From contig JAFXZY010000048.1 of NCBI GenBank assembly GCA_017541025.1, forward strand, positions 1 through 39,219: a DNA stretch of 39,219 nucleotides. Reading direction: 5' to 3'. Positions 2,677-39,219 of the stretch are shown in pieces (the stretch's first letter is position 1; the number at the start of each line of letters is the position of its first letter). Source of the DNA: Bacteroidaceae bacterium (GTDB lineage: Bacteria > Bacteroidota > Bacteroidia > Bacteroidales > Bacteroidaceae). The notes under the pieces were generated by a model that saw only the letters and a list, made by a program, of their open reading frames with translations, had not been told where the DNA came from and did not search any database. The position numbers and the translations under genes were made by a program.

Positions 2677-2696
2677 TCCTCGCTTTTGCTCCGCCG

Positions 2697-2704
2697 TACC
2701 TTTG
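2697..2704 (+). promoter_or_regulatory. Bacteroidetes -7 promoter element for the HU gene
   Basis: TACCTTTG matches the TAnnTTTG consensus. No clear -33 TTTG lies at the usual spacing, so an activator bound to the upstream decamers might be needed (inference). It gives a leader of about 115 bases before the start at 2,825. Confidence 0.7.
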
Positions 2705-2723
2705 CAGTGCCTTAGGGCGAAAG

Positions 2724-2786
2724 TTCTTACGGCTACACGTGGAAAAAATTACTGCCACGTGTACCGGTAAGAATTACTACGCGTAG
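2724..2786 (+). promoter_or_regulatory. Structured 5' leader of the HU gene
   Basis: Arms at 2,724-2,742 and 2,755-2,773 form a 19-bp stem with 17 matches and a 12-base A-rich loop. Just after it, 2,777-2,786 is a perfect 10-bp palindrome, CTACGCGTAG. Both are in the transcribed leader, upstream of the HU start codon, and could control translation or be protein-binding sites. Confidence 0.7.
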
Positions 2787-2824
2787 CAGAAAACAATAAA
2801 AATTAACCCCAAAAACAAAAAACT

Positions 2825-3418
2825 ATGGCATTAAAAGTAAAAGCGAAAGAGAAACTTCAGAAGATCGGCAAGTATGCCGACACCTACCGTTACGTGATGC
2901 AGCCCGAACTGTACACGCCTCTGAAGGAGGAGAAGGTTATCCGCGAGGCAGCTCTGCGCAGCGGAGTGAACCAGGGTGTGATGCAGGCCTGCTGGGATGC
3001 TGCCGGTGAGGTCATCAAGGCTTGGGCTACCGAGGGTCACAGCGTGGCACTGCCCGGACTTGGCAGCATGCGTTTCGGCCTCCGTGCCAAGAGTGTGGCC
3101 GACGTGAACGAGGTAAAGGCGGGCCTTATCACCACTCGCCGCATCATCTTCACGCCCAACACCGAGCTGAAGGATGAGTTGGCACAGACCGCCATCCAGA
3201 TCACCTGCTACGACCGCAACGGCAACGAGGTGAAGCGTGTAACCAGTACCGACCCAGGTACCATCGAGGACCCTGAAAACGGGAACGATAACGGGAACGT
3301 TAACCCTAACGAGGGGGGAGATAACGAAGGCCAACAGCCAAATGCCAACGGCCAAGGTGACGATAACGGCGGTGACGACAATGGTGGCGGCGACGAGCCA
3401 GGAGCGGATGAAGACTAA
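2825..3418 (+). CDS. HU-family DNA-binding protein with acidic, Gly/Asn-rich tail
   Basis: The 197-residue product has an HU/IHF-like domain over about residues 1-125. It shows the N-terminal basic stretch, the VIREAALRSGVNQGVMQACWDAAGEVIKAW helical region, the VALPGLGSMRF beta turn and the arm-like RRIIFTPNTELK segment typical of the long Bacteroidales HU subgroup. From about residue 145 it continues as a disordered tail of Asn, Gly, Asp and Glu. HU proteins bend and coat DNA as dimers; the acidic tail is unusual and may weaken non-specific DNA binding or bind partners (inference). It follows DUF4248 and precedes the P5-like gene, a common Bacteroidales order. A phased repeat array, a -7 element and a leader hairpin lie upstream, which suggests tight regulation. 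Confidence 0.9.
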   Translation: MALKVKAKEKLQKIGKYADTYRYVMQPELYTPLKEEKVIREAALRSGVNQGVMQACWDAAGEVIKAWATEGHSVALPGLGSMRFGLRAKSVADVNEVKAGLITTRRIIFTPNTELKDELAQTAIQITCYDRNGNEVKRVTSTDPGTIEDPENGNDNGNVNPNEGGDNEGQQPNANGQGDDNGGDDNGGGDEPGADED

Positions 3419-3443
3419 GACCCCCTAACCCTTCGGGCCCCTC

Positions 3444-3524
3444 CGTCGCGAATGGGGATTCGCTCCCCTTTGTGGGGCCACAGCCACATTCAGTGGCTAC
3501 TCTAAAGACCCCAGTCGCCCTTTA
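3444..3524 (-). repeat. 81-bp inverted repeat, left copy
   Basis: The reverse complement of this stretch matches 4,268-4,348 at 77 of 81 positions. Each copy contains its own small palindromes (for example GCGAAT-GGGG-ATTCGC and AGCCAC/GTGGCT). It follows the HU stop codon and could fold into several hairpins in RNA. Confidence 0.85.
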
Positions 3525-3532
3525 GGGGGAAT

Positions 3533-3561
3533 GAAGAGTGGGCCTTCGGGCCCAACTCTTC
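3533..3561 (+). terminator. Hairpin with TTCG loop after the HU gene
   Basis: Arms GAAGAG-TGGGCC and GGCCCA-A-CTCTTC close on a TTCG tetraloop, with one bulged base. No T-tract follows, so it may be a transcript-end stabiliser rather than a true intrinsic terminator. Confidence 0.55.
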
Positions 3562-3577
3562 AAATTGAAAATTGAAA

Positions 3578-3722
3578 ATTGAAAGTTGAAAATTAATTTC
3601 AGTAGTTAAGAATTCGGAAGTTAAGTAGTTAAGCCATTACCAATAATATGTGCAGAACTATCGTCTTTAACTCCTGTCCGAATGGACGAGCGAAGCGATA
3701 ACTCCTTTAACTTCTTTAACTC
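3578..3722 (+). repeat. ~140-bp direct repeat, first copy
   Basis: This stretch is repeated at 4,424-4,562 in the same orientation. The shared core includes CAGTAGTTAAGAATTCGGAA, GTGCAGAACTATCGTCTTTAA and CTCCTTTAACTTCTTTAACT. Inside, a short hairpin differs in sequence but keeps its pairing: GTCC-GAAT-GGAC here and GGCC-GAAA-GGCC in the second copy. Confidence 0.85.
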
Positions 3723-3729
3723 CTTATAA

Positions 3730-4125
3730 ATGATAACAAACAACAACCCATTGAACATCCGCGTTGGTAAAAGCAAGTGGCAAGGACAAGTACTCCCCCA
3801 AAGGGGGAGCGGAGAGGGGGCTTTTTGTCACTTTGAATCGATGGAATATGGCCTCCGTGCTGGCTTCTGCCTGCTCCGCACCTATGCCACCAAGTACCGA
3901 CTGAACTGCGTGAAGGACATCATCACCCGTTGGGCGCCGCCATCGGAGAACAACACGCAGAGCTACATCCGCCATGTTTGTCTTCTCACTGGCTTTGGTG
4001 GTAACCAACGACTGACGGAGAAGGACTGGCCCCGCCTCGTCAAGGCCATGGCCAAGATGGAGTCCGGCGCAGATCTGGATGACAATCTCATCCAAAGTGC
4101 ATTTAGGTTATACAAACATTATTAA
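3730..4125 (+). CDS. Structural protein P5-like (phage muralytic/lysozyme-like) protein
   Basis: This 131-residue protein begins with MITNNNPLNIRVGKSKWQGQ and continues with ESMEYGLRAGFCLLRTYATKY, IITRWAPPSENNTQSYI. These are the hallmarks of the P5-type proteins of Bacteroidales, named after the lytic structural protein of the membrane phage PRD1. They resemble small muramidase-like domains. No signal peptide is present. At about residues 22-31 the peptide VLPQRGSGEG replaces the usual short polar turn; its DNA (3,793-3,822) is one copy of a GC-rich palindromic element. It is followed after 27 bases by the smalltalk gene. The family name reflects homology and the enzymatic role is not proven here. 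Confidence 0.8.
   Translation: MITNNNPLNIRVGKSKWQGQVLPQRGSGEGAFCHFESMEYGLRAGFCLLRTYATKYRLNCVKDIITRWAPPSENNTQSYIRHVCLLTGFGGNQRLTEKDWPRLVKAMAKMESGADLDDNLIQSAFRLYKHY
3793..3822. repeat. GC-rich palindromic element inside the P5-like gene
   Basis: CTCCCCCAAAGGGGGAG followed by CGGAGAGGGGGCT. Read in reverse it is AGCCCCCTC..CCCCTTTGGGGGAG, the same pattern as at 19,463-19,497, 26,511-26,574 and 30,347-30,380. It is translated in frame as part of VLPQRGSGEGAF. Confidence 0.65.
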
Positions 4126-4152
4126 TAACGATAACGTTAAAACATTAAAATT

Positions 4153-4251
4153 ATGAAAAAAAAAGAGACGTGGAAGACTATACTTCACCTTGTGGCAAGC
4201 ATTATTGCTTCTATCATTACTGCACTGGGTACTACTAGTTGTATGAGGTAA
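4153..4251 (+). CDS. Smalltalk protein (32 residues)
   Basis: A 32-residue product: MKKKETWKTILHLV, then ASIIASIITALGTTSCMR. It has a short basic start and one hydrophobic helix, the layout of the tiny Bacteroidales 'smalltalk' family found beside HU and P5/amidase genes. The family function is unknown; it is probably membrane-associated. The start is the ATG of TTATGAAA, 27 bases after the P5-like stop. It is too short for most gene finders. A second copy of its last eleven codons lies 120 bases downstream (4,374-4,421). Confidence 0.85.
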   Translation: MKKKETWKTILHLVASIIASIITALGTTSCMR

Positions 4252-4267
4252 GTTTTAGCTCCCTCCA

Positions 4268-4348
4268 TAAAGGGCGACTGGGGTCTTTAGAGAAGCCACT
4301 GAATGTGGTTTCGGCCCCACAAAGGGGAGCGAATCCCCATTCGCGACG
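4268..4348 (+). repeat. 81-bp inverted repeat, right copy
   Basis: Inverted partner of 3,444-3,524 with four mismatches. It starts 16 bases after the smalltalk stop and separates the intact gene from the copied fragment of its end. An open frame crosses it, but the product is repeat-derived. Confidence 0.85.
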
Positions 4349-31864: not shown

Positions 31865-31971
31865 TGCTTCGATATTTCGATGTGCGGCCTTTTCTTTATA
31901 ACGTTATAACGTCATACCGTTATTACGATGGTCTTTTCATGGCCGCCTCTTCATTCTTCACTCTTCATTCT

Positions 31972-33081
31972 TCACTCTTCACTTTTAAAGAGCACTCTCT
32001 GCCCCTCCGCAACGTTATTAGCTCCTACAGTCACAATCCGGTCACCCGCATTCAAACCGCTGGTAATGATGAAGTCCTTGCCGTTGCCTGTATCTTCTGT
32101 TGTAACTTCAATAGCGGTGGCCGTGCTGTCAGCCTGTACCTTATACACCTGTGCCTTGTCCTGCAGGCGCACCACAGCATTCTGAGGAACGACAAACACA
32201 TCCTTCTCGGCAAAGTTCATCACGACCGTACCCTGTATGCCTGAGTACAGATGGCCGTCGGGGTTAGGGAATGAAACCTTAGCTGTCAAAGAGCCGGTGG
32301 CAGCATTCACGATACCCGTCAGGCTTATGATACGACCCTTGTGGGGATATTCCGTACCGTTCTTCATGACAAACGTTGCATCTGGCATTTTGGCAAGATG
32401 CTTTTCTATATCGGCTGCCTTTACGCCTTCTTGCACCATCGACTCGATAATAGCCTCCGTTACTGAGATTTCGGCATTCATTGTTGTATTACCGCTCAGC
32501 ATGGTCAGCTGTGTCATCGGTGATACCTGGTCACCGACACGCACGGGAATCTCACCGATAATTCCGGATACGGTAGCCGTAATGGTGCAGAAACCGAGGT
32601 TCACCTTCGCACGGTTTACAGATGCTTTCGCCTGAGCTACCCCGGCTTGTGCCTGCTTGTAGGAGTTCTCGGAGTTGTTGAGCATATAGCTGCTCACGAT
32701 TTTTTTCTCGAACAGGTTCTTGTTCGACTCGTATTCCAGCTTCGCACTGTTCTCTGCGGCGAGTGCTGCCTGCAGATTGGCCTGTGCCGCTTCCAGTTCA
32801 AGTTGTGCGTTACGCTGGTCGATGATAAAGAGCGTCTGCCCCTTCTTTACCTGCTGACCCTCGGCCACGCAAATCTTCATCAACTGGCCACTGACTTGTG
32901 GCGTTACTGTTACGTCGTTCTGACCTTTCATCCTGGCACTGAACTTATGAGGGAGTTCAATGTCTGATTTCTCTACCGTCATCGTTTCGAACGATGTCTT
33001 CGTTTCCTTGGGCTCATCTATCCCGCAAGAGGTCAGTACACCGACCACCATTGCCCACATCAGGGCATTTTTAGTTTTCAT
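31972..33081 (-). CDS. RND efflux periplasmic adaptor (AcrA/MexA type) lipoprotein
   Basis: I start at 33,081 (MKTKNALMWAMVVGVLTSCG), which gives a clean lipobox LTSC; a longer frame has a Cys-rich N-terminus and overlaps glgP. The 369-residue adaptor has the biotinyl-lipoyl-like motif AEGQQVKKGQTLFIIDQRNAQLELEAAQANLQ near residues 70-105, the alpha-hairpin (about 100-170) and the beta-barrel and membrane-proximal domains, ending in GLNAGDRIVTVGANNVAEGQRVLFK. It joins the permease and the outer-membrane factor downstream (107 bases to the pump gene). Starts 34 bases after the end of glgP. Confidence 0.93.
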   Translation of the reverse strand: MKTKNALMWAMVVGVLTSCGIDEPKETKTSFETMTVEKSDIELPHKFSARMKGQNDVTVTPQVSGQLMKICVAEGQQVKKGQTLFIIDQRNAQLELEAAQANLQAALAAENSAKLEYESNKNLFEKKIVSSYMLNNSENSYKQAQAGVAQAKASVNRAKVNLGFCTITATVSGIIGEIPVRVGDQVSPMTQLTMLSGNTTMNAEISVTEAIIESMVQEGVKAADIEKHLAKMPDATFVMKNGTEYPHKGRIISLTGIVNAATGSLTAKVSFPNPDGHLYSGIQGTVVMNFAEKDVFVVPQNAVVRLQDKAQVYKVQADSTATAIEVTTEDTGNGKDFIITSGLNAGDRIVTVGANNVAEGQRVLFKSEE

Positions 33082-33115
33082 GTTAAGATAATATTTTTTT
33101 GTTTTGATTATTTCA

Positions 33116-35692
33116 TTATTTGGAAAGAACAGGCAGTTCCAGCCACTTGATGTAGCAGAAGTCCTGACGGTGCGGCAGGTACTGGCTCTTCGGGTACATG
33201 CGCAAAGCACTCTTGTATTGTCCGGACTGCTTGGGAGTCAGGTCTGCCTCGAAGATATAGTTATTACCTTCCCTTCTGGTCACGTTCAGCGGTTCCACGC
33301 TATAAATGTGTTCCACACCTTCATTATCAACGCATACATTTACCTTCTCCAATCCTACGGCATCGTCCAACCCCTGCTCGTCGAGAACAACCTTCAGGTG
33401 ATAGCTCTGACCCGTCTGGCCGCCATTCACCGGATATGAATATTCGCTGCTGACCACGCTGATTTTATCCCAGCGCTCTGCCACAGTCTCCTTCCATTGG
33501 GCTATTTGCTTAGCCAAAAGGTAGTTGTCCTTAGCCAACTGCTTGAAGCGCTTAGCTTGTTTCTCATAAAACTTGAAGTAATAGTCGTCAAGCTGGCGTT
33601 TCATAGTGTAGTGCGGTGCAATCTGTGCAATGGAATTCTTGATAACCTTGATCCAGTCCTTAGAGATACCCTTTTTATCCTTCTTATAATATAATGGTAT
33701 AATCTCGTCCTCCAACAGATGATAGATGGTGGCGGCATCCAGACGGTCCTGATATTCCTGGTTCTGGTAAGTTCGATGCTCGGTAAGCGCCCATCCGGCA
33801 CCCTCGCGATACCCCTCAAGCCACCAGCCGTCCTTCACGCTGAGGTTCACAACGCCGTTCATCTGGGCTTTCTCGCCTGAAGTACCGCTGGCTTCCATAG
33901 GACGGGTAGGCGTGTTCATCCAAATGTCCACACCGCTTACCAGATTGCGAGCCAACATAAAATCGTAGTCTTCCACAAAGATTATCCTGGCCTGGAACTC
34001 GGGACGCTGGGATATCTCGTATATCATCTTTATGAGTCCCTGTCCGGCTCCGTCGGCAGGATGAGCCTTTCCTGCAAACATGAAGATAACGGGGCGGTCG
34101 GGATCGTTCACTATCTTGGACAGACGCTCCAGGTCAGTAAACAGCAAGTGAGCACGTTTGTAAGTGGCAAAGCGGCGACAGAAGCCGATAACCAGCGAGT
34201 TAGGATTAAAGCGCTGTGCCAACCGGGTGATACGGGAGGGGTCGCTCTGGTTCTTCAGCCATGTATCGCGTAACTGAATCTGTACATACTCAAAGAGTTT
34301 CATCTTGAGCGCCATACGGGTTTCCCAAATTTCCTCGTCAGGACAGTTATAGATACCGTGCCAGATTTTCTCGTTCGACTGATCCCGCATATAATTGGCA
34401 TCGAAGTACTTATCATAAATCTTAAGCCATTCTCTGGCAGCCCAAGTGGGGAAATGCACACCGTTGGTAACGTAGCCCACATGGCTCTCCTCGGGGTAAT
34501 ACCCCTTCCAGATATTGTTGAACATTTTCTTGCTTACCTCGCCGTGAAGCCAGCTTACGCCATTCACTTCCTGACAGGTATTGCAAGCAAAGGTGCTCAT
34601 ACAGAACTTCTCGCTGGAGTCCTCTGGGTTTGTCCGGCCCATGCCTATGAATTCATCCCACGTGATGCCGAGCTTCTGGGGATAACCACTCATGTACTTG
34701 CCGAAGAGGCCCTCATCGAAATAATCATGTCCGGCAGGCACAGGAGTGTGTACGGTGTAGAGACCGCTGGCACGCACAAGCTCCAGGGCCTGATTGAAAT
34801 TGAGCCCCTCCTCTATGTAATCGCAAAGACGTTGTAGGTTACAGAGGGCTGCATGACCTTCGTTGCAATGGTATATATCCTTCTTGATACCGAGTTTCTT
34901 CAGCAGCAGCATACCGCCTATACCCAGCAGGATTTCCTGCTTCAGACGATTCTCCCAGTCGCCGCCATAAAGACTATGGGTAATGGGCTTGTCGTACTCC
35001 GAGTTCATCTCGTTGTCGGTATCAAGCAGGTAGAGCTTCACACGACCCACATTGACACGCCATACGTAGGCATGCACCATGAAGTTCATAAAAGGAACAT
35101 CTATCACCATAGGATTGCCGTCGGCATCCAGCTGACGCACTACGGGTAGTGAGCTGAAGTTCTGGGCCTCGTAATTGGCAATCTGCTGCCCGTCCATAGC
35201 CAGACTCTGGGTAAAGTAGCCAAAGCGATAGAGGAATCCCACGGCACACATATCCACATTACTGTCGCTGGCCTCTTTCACATAGTCGCCGGCAAGCATT
35301 CCCAAACCTCCGCTATATATCTTCAGAGCCGAGTGGATGCCGTACTCCATACAGAAGTAGGCCACAGAAGGACGGGTATGATCAGGCTCCACATCCATAT
35401 ATTTACGGAACTTGGCATAGACATCTTTTATACGCTTTAAGAGAGCCTTGTCCTTAAGGATTTCCTGTTTGCGGGCGTAAGTCAGACGTTCCATCATCAT
35501 CACGGGATTGTGTTTCACCTCGTGATACAGGTCGTGGTCGATGTCGCGGAACAGGTCACGGGCTTCGGGGTTCCATACCCACCACATATTATGTACTATC
35601 TCGTCTAAACACTTTAGCTCTTCCGGCAAGGTAGCTTTCACGGTGAGCATAGTCCACTGTGGAACATTTGAATAACTGGCTTTAATCTTCAT
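33116..35692 (-). CDS. glgP: Alpha-glucan (glycogen/maltodextrin) phosphorylase, GT35
   Basis: A full 858-residue cytoplasmic enzyme of the short type, with an N-terminal region (about 1-100, [12 protein letters not shown]) and the GT35 body. [31 protein letters not shown] is the substrate and activation region; PLP binds Lys608 within [14 protein letters not shown] (family form EASGTSxMKxxxNG), here with Glu in place of the usual Met before the Lys. It removes glucose from alpha-1,4-glucans with phosphate to give glucose 1-phosphate. It is preceded by a structured leader and promoter and followed by the adaptor gene, with which it has no obvious functional link. Confidence 0.94.
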
Positions 35693-35758
35693 GGTCCTTT
35701 TTTATAAAAATTCTAAATTCGTTATTTATGTTTTATGGTTACTACTTAACAGCAGATT

Positions 35759-35799
35759 CGGCATTTAAATGAATCATGCCGTATTTTTTTGCAAATATA
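35759..35799 (-). promoter_or_regulatory. Promoter and leader palindrome of glgP
   Basis: TATATTTG at 35,792-35,799 (minus strand) matches TAnnTTTG. Directly downstream, CGGCAT and ATGCCG (35,759-35,764 and 35,776-35,781) form an inverted repeat near the expected 5' end of the transcript. The rest of the 35,693-35,980 stretch is A/T-rich with no gene. Confidence 0.55.
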
Positions 35800-35980
35800 T
35801 AAAAAATCTTAATTCCAAACATATTTTTCAATTAATAATTGTCTTTTATCGGTTAAACGGGTATATGATGTTCCAGCTAAGCATTATAATGAAACAAAAA
35901 GAGGCAAAAGGGTTGGGTTATGATTTTTATTTTATAAATTCGCCACCAGAAAGTTGAATGATTAAAACAAAAAAAACATC

Positions 35981-36124
35981 ATGAAATCTGAGAACACTGA
36001 CAATAAGGAGAAAAAGGCAGAACGCACATATCGTTGTAACGATTGCGGCAATGTAATATACAAGCACGAGGTTTTCTGCTCTAAGTGCGGTAAAACGCTG
36101 GACAGATACGACTTTGAAGACTGA
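35981..36124 (+). CDS. Zinc-ribbon microprotein (47 residues)
   Basis: The product has a charged N-terminus (MKSENTDNKEKKAERTYRC) followed by a zinc ribbon: CNDCG and, eleven residues on, CSKCG, so four Cys (19, 22, 33, 36) in a CxxC-N10-CxxC array, and an acidic end (RYDFED). It is too short for the standard gene lists. Zinc ribbons of this type bind nucleic acids or proteins; no role can be named. It precedes clpB by 147 bases on the same strand. Confidence 0.75.
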   Translation: MKSENTDNKEKKAERTYRCNDCGNVIYKHEVFCSKCGKTLDRYDFED

Positions 36125-36219
36125 CCTTCCTATATCATTATATGCCATAATGACGCAGAACACGTCAATTTGTCTGAAAACAAGCAAGTTGCACGGGGTT
36201 TGTACTCCTTTTAGTGAAC

Positions 36220-36249
36220 CGTTAGCGTTATCGTTGACGTTGACGTTAC
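36220..36249 (+). repeat. Five CGTTRN hexamers in the clpB leader
   Basis: CGTTAG, CGTTAT, CGTTGA, CGTTGA, CGTTAC in tandem, ending 22 bases before the clpB start. A further strong Shine-Dalgarno (AAAGGAGG, about 36,257-36,264) follows, which is rare in this window. An in-frame stop at 36,215 means no longer ClpB is possible. Confidence 0.65.
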
Positions 36250-36271
36250 AAATAAGAAAGGAGGACAAAAT

Positions 36272-38404
36272 ATGATGACACAGAACAACAACCAAAACAG
36301 CTTTTTAAGTCAGTTTGCCAGAAATCTGGTGGACGAAGCCAGAGCAGGTAAGCTTGACCCTGTAATCGGCAGGGACGAGGAGATTAGGCGTGTATTGCAG
36401 ATTCTCTCTCGCCGTACCAAGAACAACCCTATCCTGATAGGTGAGCCGGGTACTGGTAAGACAGCCATTGTGGAAGGTCTTGCACACCGTATCCTCAGAG
36501 GCGATGTGCCTGAGAACCTAAAGGAAAAACAGCTCTACAGTCTGGACATGGGTGCCCTGGTGGCAGGAGCCAAATACAAGGGTGAGTTTGAGGAACGTCT
36601 GAAAGGCGTGGTAAACGAGGTCGTTCAGAGCGAGGGTAACATTATCTTATTTATAGATGAAATTCATACGCTGGTGGGTGCCGGCAAGAGCGAGGGCGCT
36701 ATGGATGCCGCCAACATTCTGAAGCCTGCACTGGCCCGTGGTGAACTGCGTAGTATCGGTGCCACAACACTGGACGAATATCAGAAGTACTTTGAGGTGG
36801 ACAAGGCTCTGGAGCGCCGTTTCCAGACCGTAATGGTGGATGAGCCCGACCGACTGGCCAGCATCAGTATTCTGCGTGGTCTGAAGGAGCGCTACGAGAA
36901 CCACCACCATGTGCGTATCCAAGATGATGCCATCATTGCTGCCGTAGAACTCTCTACACGTTATATTACGGAACGTTTCCTGCCCGATAAGGCCATCGAC
37001 CTGATGGACGAGGCAGCAGCCAAGCTGCGTATGGAACGCGACTCTGTTCCTGAAGAGCTGGATGAGATAAGCCGCCGTCTGAAGCAGCTGGAGATTGAAC
37101 GCGAGGCCATCAAACGCGAGGGCGACAAGCCAAAGTTGGAAGCCCTGAACAAGGAAATTGCCGAGTTGCAGGAGCAGGAGAACCACTTTAAGCAGAAATG
37201 GCAAGGCGAGAAGAACCTGTTGAACCACATTCAGCAGAACAAGCAGCAGATAGAAACCCTGAAGTTTGAAGCTGAAAGAGCTGAGCGCGAGGGTAACTAT
37301 GCCAAGGTGGCTGAAATCAGATACGGTAAGCTGCAGCAGCTGGAAAAGGACATAGAAGCTACTCAGCAGCAGCTGAAGGAGGCACAAGGTACCGAGGCAA
37401 TGCTGAAAGAAGAGGTGACTGCCGACGATATTGCCGATGTGGTAAGTCGTTGGACCGGCATCCCCGTCAGGAAGATGATGCAGAGTGAACGCGAGAAACT
37501 GCTGCATCTGGAAGAGGAACTGCACAAGCGTGTGATTGGTCAGGACGAAGCCATTCAGGCTGTGAGCGATGCCGTAAGACGTAGTCGTGCAGGAATGCAA
37601 GACCCCAAGCGTCCCATAGGTTCCTTCATCTTCCTGGGTACCACAGGTGTAGGTAAAACAGAACTGGCTAAAGCCGTAGCCGAATCTCTATTTGACGATG
37701 AGAAAAACATGGTTCGTATAGATATGAGCGAATACATGGAGAAATTCTCTGTGTCCAGACTCATAGGAGCGCCTCCAGGATATGTCGGATATGATGAAGG
37801 AGGACAGCTCACAGAAGCAGTCCGTCGTAAACCATATTGCGTCGTTCTGTTCGATGAGATCGAAAAAGCTCATCCAGATGTCTTCAATGTCCTTTTGCAG
37901 GTCCTTGATGACGGGCGAATCACTGATAGCCAGGGACGTACTGTGGACTTCAAGAACACTATTCTCATTATGACATCCAATCTTGGAAGCGACATCCTGC
38001 TTGAAGGTATAGAAAACGGAGAAATAAAGGAAGAAGCACGTCAGCAAGTCGAGACACTCCTCAAACGCAGCTTCCGCCCGGAATTCCTCAACAGGATAGA
38101 TGAGACTGTATGTTACAAACCTCTGAACTTTGATGAGATAGGACAGATTGCAGATCTACAGCTAACCGCACTCAGCAAACGCCTTGAAGAGCGCCAGCTC
38201 AAACTGGAAACTACTGAGGCAGCTAAAAAGCTCATTGCCGAGAAAGGATATGACCCGATATTCGGTGCCCGTCCTCTGAAACGCTATCTCCAGTCAGCGG
38301 TAGAAACAGCGATAACCAAATGTATTCTTATGCAGGATCCTTCTCCGGATTCAACAATCGTTATCGATGCTGCGGGAGAAGAGATAACAGCTTCTATAAA
38401 ATGA
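36272..38404 (+). CDS. clpB: ClpB-type AAA+ disaggregase lacking the N-domain (chimeric gene)
   Basis: A 710-residue protein; the usual ClpB has about 860. The normal N-domain (about 150 residues) is absent: the protein starts with [19 protein letters not shown] and goes directly into [24 protein letters not shown]1 (Walker A GEPGTGKT near 57-64), the coiled-coil M domain (about 255-380) and AAA2 (GTTGVGKT near 456-463) follow. Up to about residue 460 the sequence is Bacteroidetes-like ([15 protein letters not shown]). From [15 protein letters not shown] on, and clearly at [14 protein letters not shown] and RPLKRYLQS, it is Clostridia-like, and codon use shifts (Gly GGT/GGC to GGA). ClpB with DnaK rescues aggregated proteins. 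The 5' part is native to this genome; the 3' part may not be. Confidence 0.85.
37640..37770 (+). other. Likely junction between Bacteroidales and Clostridia DNA
   Basis: Inside the conserved AAA2 coding region, Gly codons change from mostly GGT/GGC (last before 37,660) to mostly GGA (from about 37,768), and family-specific residues switch from Bacteroidetes to Firmicutes form. Everything downstream (strong terminator, Shine-Dalgarno sites, TATAAT box, gene content) fits a Firmicute. A join of two assembled genomes at a conserved stretch is the simplest reading. Confidence 0.75.
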
Positions 38405-38416
38405 CCATATAAAAAG

Positions 38417-38461
38417 CAGCACGGATGCTTGACCACTGGACAGCATCCGTGCTGTTTTTTT
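38417..38461 (+). terminator. Perfect intrinsic terminator after clpB
   Basis: A perfect 13-bp stem (CAGCACGGATGCT with AGCATCCGTGCTG), a 12-base loop and a seven-T run. This is the strongest terminator in the window and looks Firmicutes-like. Confidence 0.95.
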
Positions 38462-38473
38462 CGTATTTCTCTT

Positions 38474-38875
38474 TTAGAAAGTGACTGTCTCCGGTTCTGC
38501 AGTGAAAGAGCTGAAAGTCGCAGTAGCATTTCTGAAATAAAGCACCTGTGTATTGTCATCATCTGCACTGTACATCCTTTTCAGATTTGGATTCTTCTCA
38601 AGCATTGCAACCTTAGCATCACGGTCATCATCGTTTATAAGTTCTCCTGCTACACGAAGCCACGTTCCGTTATGAAAAGCACAGATCTCTGCTTTGGGAT
38701 TTGCAGCTAGCTGTTTAGAAACTGCTTTCACTTTTCCGGTCTGAATATACAGTTTTCCATTGTAGATTATAGCTGTTCCAAACGGACGAACTCTTGGCTG
38801 GTCTCCTTCTACTGTAGCCAAATAATATGTCTTTGCCTCATTAAGAAACTGACACACTCTCTCGATTGCTTCCAT
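38474..38875 (-). CDS. Pyridoxamine 5'-phosphate oxidase-like flavin protein
   Basis: I start at 38,875 because GAAAGGAAAC lies just upstream as a Shine-Dalgarno; an upstream in-frame ATG at 38,902 lacks one. The 133-residue protein (MEAIERVCQFLNEAKTYYLATVEGDQPRVRPF) has the split-barrel fold of the PNPOx-like family: FGTAIIYNGKLYIQTGKVKAVSKQLAANPKAEICAF is the FMN-binding strand pattern. Members are FMN or F420 reductases, and several small Clostridia versions have unknown substrates. It belongs to the Clostridia-like end of the window; codon use and Shine-Dalgarno differ from the rest. Confidence 0.9.
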   Translation of the reverse strand: MEAIERVCQFLNEAKTYYLATVEGDQPRVRPFGTAIIYNGKLYIQTGKVKAVSKQLAANPKAEICAFHNGTWLRVAGELINDDDRDAKVAMLEKNPNLKRMYSADDDNTQVLYFRNATATFSSFTAEPETVTF

Positions 38876-38913
38876 CTTCTTGTTTCCTTTCTCTGATCTC
38901 AAGGATAGTGTTC

Positions 38914-38945
38914 GGGAGCAGATCAGATCTGGCTCCCCGTTTTTA
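38914..38945 (+). terminator. Hairpin with T-run upstream of the ada gene
   Basis: GGGAGC-AGATC pairs with GATCT-G-GCTCCC (one bulge), followed by CGTTTTT on the plus strand. No plus-strand gene ends here, so it may be an antisense-side terminator or a leader attenuator. Confidence 0.5.
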
Positions 38946-39046
38946 ATTATTATACTTCTTTCAGTTCATTCTGTCATTTTAAGCTCTTCTTTTTTAAATC
39001 TGATAGGACTCATATGCCGTTCTTTTCTGTTGTTTTTCCAATACTG

Positions 39047-39052
39047 TATAAT
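39047..39052 (+). promoter_or_regulatory. TATAAT -10 box for the ada gene
   Basis: A perfect TATAAT, 22 bases before the start codon. The -35 region is weak. It is unlike the TAnnTTTG promoters of the rest of the window. Confidence 0.65.
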
Positions 39053-39073
39053 TAGAAAAAAAGGAGGCATGCT

Positions 39074-39219
39074 ATGCAAACAGCGAGAATTGATCTTCAT
39101 CTGCATCTTGACGGCTCTTTCAGACCGGAAACGATCTGGGAACTGGTTCAGAAACAGGGCGTTGAATCACCGGCTGACACTCTTGATGGATACAAGGAAT
39201 TCATCAGAAAATGCGTCAT
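39074..39219 (+). CDS. Adenosine deaminase, N-terminal part (cut by the window end)
   Basis: Only 48 residues are present: MQTARIDLHLHLDGSFRPETIWEL and on. The HLHLDGS zinc-binding motif is that of adenosine/adenine deaminases, which convert adenosine to inosine in purine salvage. A strong AAAGGAGG (about 39,059-39,066) precedes the start, which supports it and a Firmicutes origin. A TATAAT box lies just upstream. Adenine deaminase or another member of the same amidohydrolase family cannot be excluded from this fragment. Confidence 0.85.
   Translation, partial: MQTARIDLHLHLDGSFRPETIWELVQKQGVESPADTLDGYKEFIRKCV

Follow-up and report, generated by a model that had tools for sequence, protein, structure and literature searches.

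The clpB gene at the 3' end of this Bacteroidaceae contig raises the question of whether a single open frame can belong to two phyla and, if it does, whether the hybrid exists in a cell or in an assembly. The window, that is the whole stretch of DNA analysed here, is the entire contig C75 (39,219 bases) of assembly G000. This assembly consists of 95 contigs totalling 3.28 Mb, with a completeness of 83.85% and a contamination of 0.93%, figures from which it looks like a metagenome bin. Its clpB gene forms one open frame of 710 amino acids at 36272–38404, on the forward strand. The original prediction had proposed that this ClpB changes ancestry in mid-gene, from Bacteroidetes to Clostridia, and had offered both a chimeric contig and natural recombination as the reason.

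A profile search of the hybrid frame recovered AAA1 (PF00004), the lid (PF17871), AAA2 (PF07724) and D2-small (PF10431). The scan of viral contigs and the structure-sequence search likewise described the parts of the gene as ordinary ClpB, with 1qvr as the best solved relative. AAA1, AAA2 and D2-small are features that both the hybrid frame and the native gene of the sister genome G081 have in common with the ClpB disaggregase (TIGR03346; 1qvr). Unlike that protein, however, the window gene and its five nearest relatives do not have the N-terminal Clp_N domain, and the 3' third of the window gene comes from another organism. The match to the TIGR03346 equivalog reached 1197.4 bits, below the cut-off of 1232.1, and covered model positions 149–851 of 853, a shortfall that goes with the missing N domain. 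Clp_N was absent from the 25 best of the 28 families matched by the window ClpB and from all 25 examined for L086. The five reference relatives belong to the same genus and carry a short clpB (L086–L090, from G081, G051, G084, G047 and G045). A search of the DNA upstream of L001 and of these five genes gave no match to the N domain, save one chance match (L089, 21 residues, E = 7.1). A passage of PMC1887533 reports a three-amino-acid deletion in ClpB as a signature of the Bacteroidetes.

Comparison with these relatives located the change of ancestry. Residues 1–445 of the window ClpB share 97.1–99.6% amino acid identity with the five short proteins, and from residue 476 on the identity is 59.7–64.5%. 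At the DNA level, 1347 of 1400 bases (96.2%) are identical to G081 up to position 37671, and past it 228 of 319 (71%, over 37672–37990). Because identity to G081 breaks there, we place the switch at or just before 37672, at about codon 467, directly past the AAA2 Walker A motif. The part from 36272 to 37671 (forward strand) is thereby delimited as the native 5' portion of a Bacteroidales short clpB, with AAA1, the middle region and the start of AAA2 and without Clp_N, as indicated by its identity to G081, its grouping with other short clpB genes from the genus in a 50-row tree, and an upstream neighbourhood in common with G081. Codon use was scored in 180-base steps against two references, the long open frames in the first 36 kb of the window and 11 Clostridia loci. 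All eight segments within 36272–37711 were closer to the window's own genes, and all four past 37711 were closer to Clostridia, one of them being practically neutral (−0.001). The gene thus changes ancestry abruptly at about 37672, and the change of identity, the codon use and the trees agree with the original prediction on this point, including its claim that codon use changes at the same place. The 248 bases directly before the join (37424–37671) are free of mismatches to G081; set against 96.2% over the entire 5' part, this perfect stretch may reflect chance, exchange or the collapse of related reads.

The 3' part of the gene (37672–38404, forward strand), which comprises the remainder of AAA2 and D2-small, is a Clostridia clpB fragment foreign to the genome by its amino acid identity, its position in the tree and its codon use. 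It shares up to 72% identity with Clostridia. In a tree of 101 rows it groups with 10 Bacillota rows (99/97), nested within a larger group of 23 Bacillota rows and the window (99/93) and apart from Bacteroidota, in an analysis whose bootstrap was not fully settled (0.983). The two genes that follow are those that had been described as Clostridia-like. The first encodes a Clostridia-like PNPOx_N family protein of 132 amino acids (38474–38872, reverse strand; PF01243, E = 8.8e-9) and the second, an adenosine-deaminase-type gene of which the contig contains just the beginning, runs off its end (39074–39219, forward strand; PF00962, E = 5.4e-8 over 41 residues). The PNPOx-type protein has matches of 67–78% amino acid identity in 4 of 23 Clostridia-side genomes, weaker ones in 2 more and none in the other 17, and it has no match in the 5 Bacteroidota genomes searched alongside. 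Elsewhere in the window's genus, 35 of 138 genomes have some match, at 53% at best, and the family is not restricted to Clostridia.

The contig terminates about 1.5 kb past the switch. The 1540-base segment after the switch is present in none of the 138 other genus genomes, in which the best-scoring match has 77% identity over 301 bases and the highest identity among the matches listed is 79% over 266 bases, in the clpB core only. The counter-example named in the original prediction, a Bacteroidales genome in which this ClpB precedes these genes, was thus looked for in these 138 genomes and not found. The Clostridia donor was not found among the best 80 of 582 confirmed contig loci and 31 genomes from the same order as G533 (16 from its family), the closest DNA match among those listed being 77% over 327 bases. 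None of the plasmid records covers 80% of 37500–39219.

Two further signals said to change at the same place proved uninformative. A change of Shine-Dalgarno sites had been claimed, and the comparison speaks against it: the window clpB itself starts behind AAAGGAGG, and among the five relatives G081, G047 and G045 carry AAAGGAGT at the clpB start, strong sites in both cases, with no such site in G084 and that of G051 falling outside the comparison. The claimed change of promoter type was not borne out either, the sigma-70-like match at 38977–38949 being the single one found where 3.5 were expected. After the end of the foreign clpB lies an intrinsic-terminator-like hairpin with a T run (38438–38457, forward strand), identified by consensus match only and one of 6 found against 2.5 expected.

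We searched G000 with the 3' half of the G081 clpB and the DNA downstream of it and recovered contig C49 (21,969 bp), which matches at 97% over 2004 bases. From about 2164 to about 11595, C49 aligns with contig C31 of G081 downstream of clpB, mostly with 84–100% identity in 200-base steps, apart from a gap without a match near 6.4 kb. The window aligns with the same G081 contig on the other, upstream side of clpB (31952–37671), and in G081 a single intact clpB of 710 amino acids joins the two sides. It follows that the clpB of G000 is split over C75 and C49 and broken in the same gene. The native continuation of the window gene thus lies elsewhere in the assembly, on C49, with the reserve that positions 2164–2690 of C49 reach only 89% identity to G081 and resemble other species with a short clpB just as closely. 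This stretch may derive from another close relative, and it may represent an extra seam or a natural exchange within C49. It leaves the verdict on the window untouched, because beyond 2690 C49 is G081-like (about 99% identical over 2690–4335) and syntenic. No intact clpB was found in the G000 assembly, which is 84% complete.

Left of 2164, C49 carries a different clpB, with 1008 of 1353 bases identical to G081 and with a Clp_N domain. It represents the 5' portion of the full-length type of ClpB in this family, a form that has the same AAA core as the short one and differs from it in the presence of the N domain. The 50-row tree places it apart from the genus, the 31 rows of which make up one side of a branch (96/99), and it adjoins G197, from another genus of the family (pair support 89/65). 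G197 is its nearest relative by protein (90.6% amino acid identity) and is not the donor itself. The donor was not found in the 138 other genus genomes (best-scoring match 73% DNA identity over 1.9 kb, shorter stretches up to 78%), nor in a sample of 392 other genomes of the order (74% over 1.9 kb). We had also considered this sequence as a second clpB of the window's genus and rejected that origin on its place in the tree. The hybrid frame of C49 is open, with 859 amino acids counted from its ATG, and it keeps all AAA and D2-small domains. C49 therefore looks chimeric as well, its first 2.2 kb being the clpB start of another genus, and its 859-amino-acid ClpB frame probably does not represent a true gene of G000.

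The two joins lie close together, C75 leaving the native sequence at 37672 and the last foreign-type mismatch of C49 falling at the window equivalent of 37702, about 30 bases away. The probable place of the false join is the Walker A stretch of AAA2 (GVGKTELAK; 37646–37672, forward strand), in which the last base agreeing with G081 is 37671 and of which short exact copies occur outside the genus. The join sits in a stretch conserved between the sources. Its bases 37646–37665 have an exact copy in a viral contig outside the genus (L084). These 20 bases are the longest exact share at the join with any locus outside the genus, and the longest with a sampled Clostridia-side locus (L237) is 14 bases. 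Exact shares of 14 and 20 bases are shorter than the k usually employed in assembly, which counts against the chimeric-contig reading.

An abrupt switch of ancestry, complementary halves of clpB on two contigs and synteny with G081 on the outer side of each are observed here. The meeting of three clpB genes on two contigs at a single conserved site points to a fork that the assembly graph left unresolved; a natural origin would call for two independent exchanges there. We consider it about 95% probable, from the sequences compared, that the two-phylum clpB is an assembly artefact and not a domain-level ClpB hybrid, the assembler being the cause that we infer. The assembly graph would have brought together, at the conserved AAA2 core of clpB, reads from at least three organisms: the native Bacteroidales, a member of the Clostridia, and a second Bacteroidales that belongs to another genus and has a full-length clpB. 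From this fork the assembler would have taken the wrong paths. C75 would then combine the native clpB 5' part with a Clostridia clpB 3' part and the Clostridia genes behind it, and C49 the clpB 5' part of the other Bacteroidales with a Bacteroidales short-clpB 3' part and the native genes behind it. Both frames would stay open because the join hits the same codon position of homologous genes. A passage of PMC8171044 describes chimeric nodes, each a nucleotide stretch that two species have in common and that has two entries and two exits, as a cause of chimeric contigs in de Bruijn metagenome assemblers. The situation proposed here resembles that description in that a nucleotide stretch is common to the species involved, its entries and exits are mispaired and the join lies at this stretch. 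It differs from it in that at least three sources meet and in that the exact shared stretch at the fork is presumed.

The open frames (710 amino acids, and 859 from the ATG) and the preservation of all AAA and D2-small domains in both hybrids are also what a real double exchange could have produced, in which homologous recombination would have given a Clostridia 3' end to the native 5' part and an other-genus 5' end to the native 3' part, leaving two hybrid ClpBs. Such an origin, however, requires two independent events, each with a donor of its own, no more than about 30 bases apart. The lack of an intact clpB in an assembly that is 84% complete, the location of the foreign ends at contig ends and the absence of the segment from every one of the 138 other genus genomes also stand against it. 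We therefore regard it as very unlikely, and the complementary broken clpB on C49 bears out the chimeric-contig half of the original prediction at the expense of its natural-recombination half. Just as improbable is the cell that such an exchange would imply, with a ClpB made of Bacteroidales AAA1 and middle domains and a Clostridia AAA2 substrate-threading ring, two Clostridia neighbour genes acquired along with it, and the reciprocal hybrid elsewhere. It is no more probable that C49 alone is natural, through acquisition of the clpB 5' part of the other genus or through exchange between close species, and that assembly error is confined to the Clostridia join of the window. The step from 89% to about 99% identity to G081 (at 2164–2690 and beyond) is a pattern that close-species exchange can make, but this would not explain why the seams lie only about 30 bases apart, nor the common outer synteny with G081, and the verdict on the window would be the same either way. 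Least probable of all is a Campbell-type integration, by a single crossover, of a mobile element with its own clpB, whose reciprocal hybrids at the insert ends would fit the geometry of half genes on two contigs and for which clpB-like genes do exist on plasmids (743 plasmid records have some match to the query, of which none covers 80%), but which would require both foreign halves to stem from one gene, when one is Clostridia-like and the other Bacteroidales-like, and which is at odds with the two genes in the 815 bases past clpB belonging to metabolic-enzyme families and not to element genes. Even taken jointly, the double exchange and the Campbell-type insertion remain highly improbable.

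Short and long forms of ClpB coexist in the genus. A short ClpB without the N-terminal domain, as judged by open-frame length, takes the place of the form of about 860 amino acids in 31 of 100 other genus genomes. Upstream DNA gave an N-domain match beyond chance for none of the 12 short clpB genes checked (among them L086–L090 and L242–L248; L089 with only 826 bases upstream), versus all 9 checked of the 14 long ones. Thirteen genus rows of the short clade form, together with the window 5' part, one supported group in the 50-row tree (98/94, the length of the L203 row being taken as given). This distribution of sequences would fit a single loss of the ClpB N domain in the genus. In three genomes, G030, G092 and G046, a long-type clpB start with an N domain stands on a small contig of 3.8–5.7 kb (C103, C108 and C81; L251, L249 and L253) and ends in AAA2 at or near the contig end. 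These genomes also hold a short-type or other clpB piece, and the long-type starts may be contaminants or similar assembly debris.

Contig ends truncate at least six clpB pieces of the same 100 genomes on the 3' side (residues 450, 474, 490, 522, 535 and 567) and four more on the 5' side (residues 18, 166, 197 and 236), the latter four outside the conserved stretch. These cuts were counted at fetched loci, where the extent of the contig was seen, and their true number may be higher. The six 3'-side cuts all lie within the AAA2 core, a regularity noticed post hoc that we offer as a matter of consistency and not as a test.

The locus provides a worked case of an in-frame false join, in which the hybrid looks intact and matches the family models of ClpB. 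The genome-level contamination figure of 0.93% is blind to it. The warning attached to the 3' end of this contig is upheld, as its last 1.5 kb is unfit as evidence of gene transfer, and the same segment, together with the first 2.2 kb of C49, is misleading for gene transfer, phylogeny and annotation. The hybrid protein could, moreover, enter protein databases as a cross-phylum ClpB.
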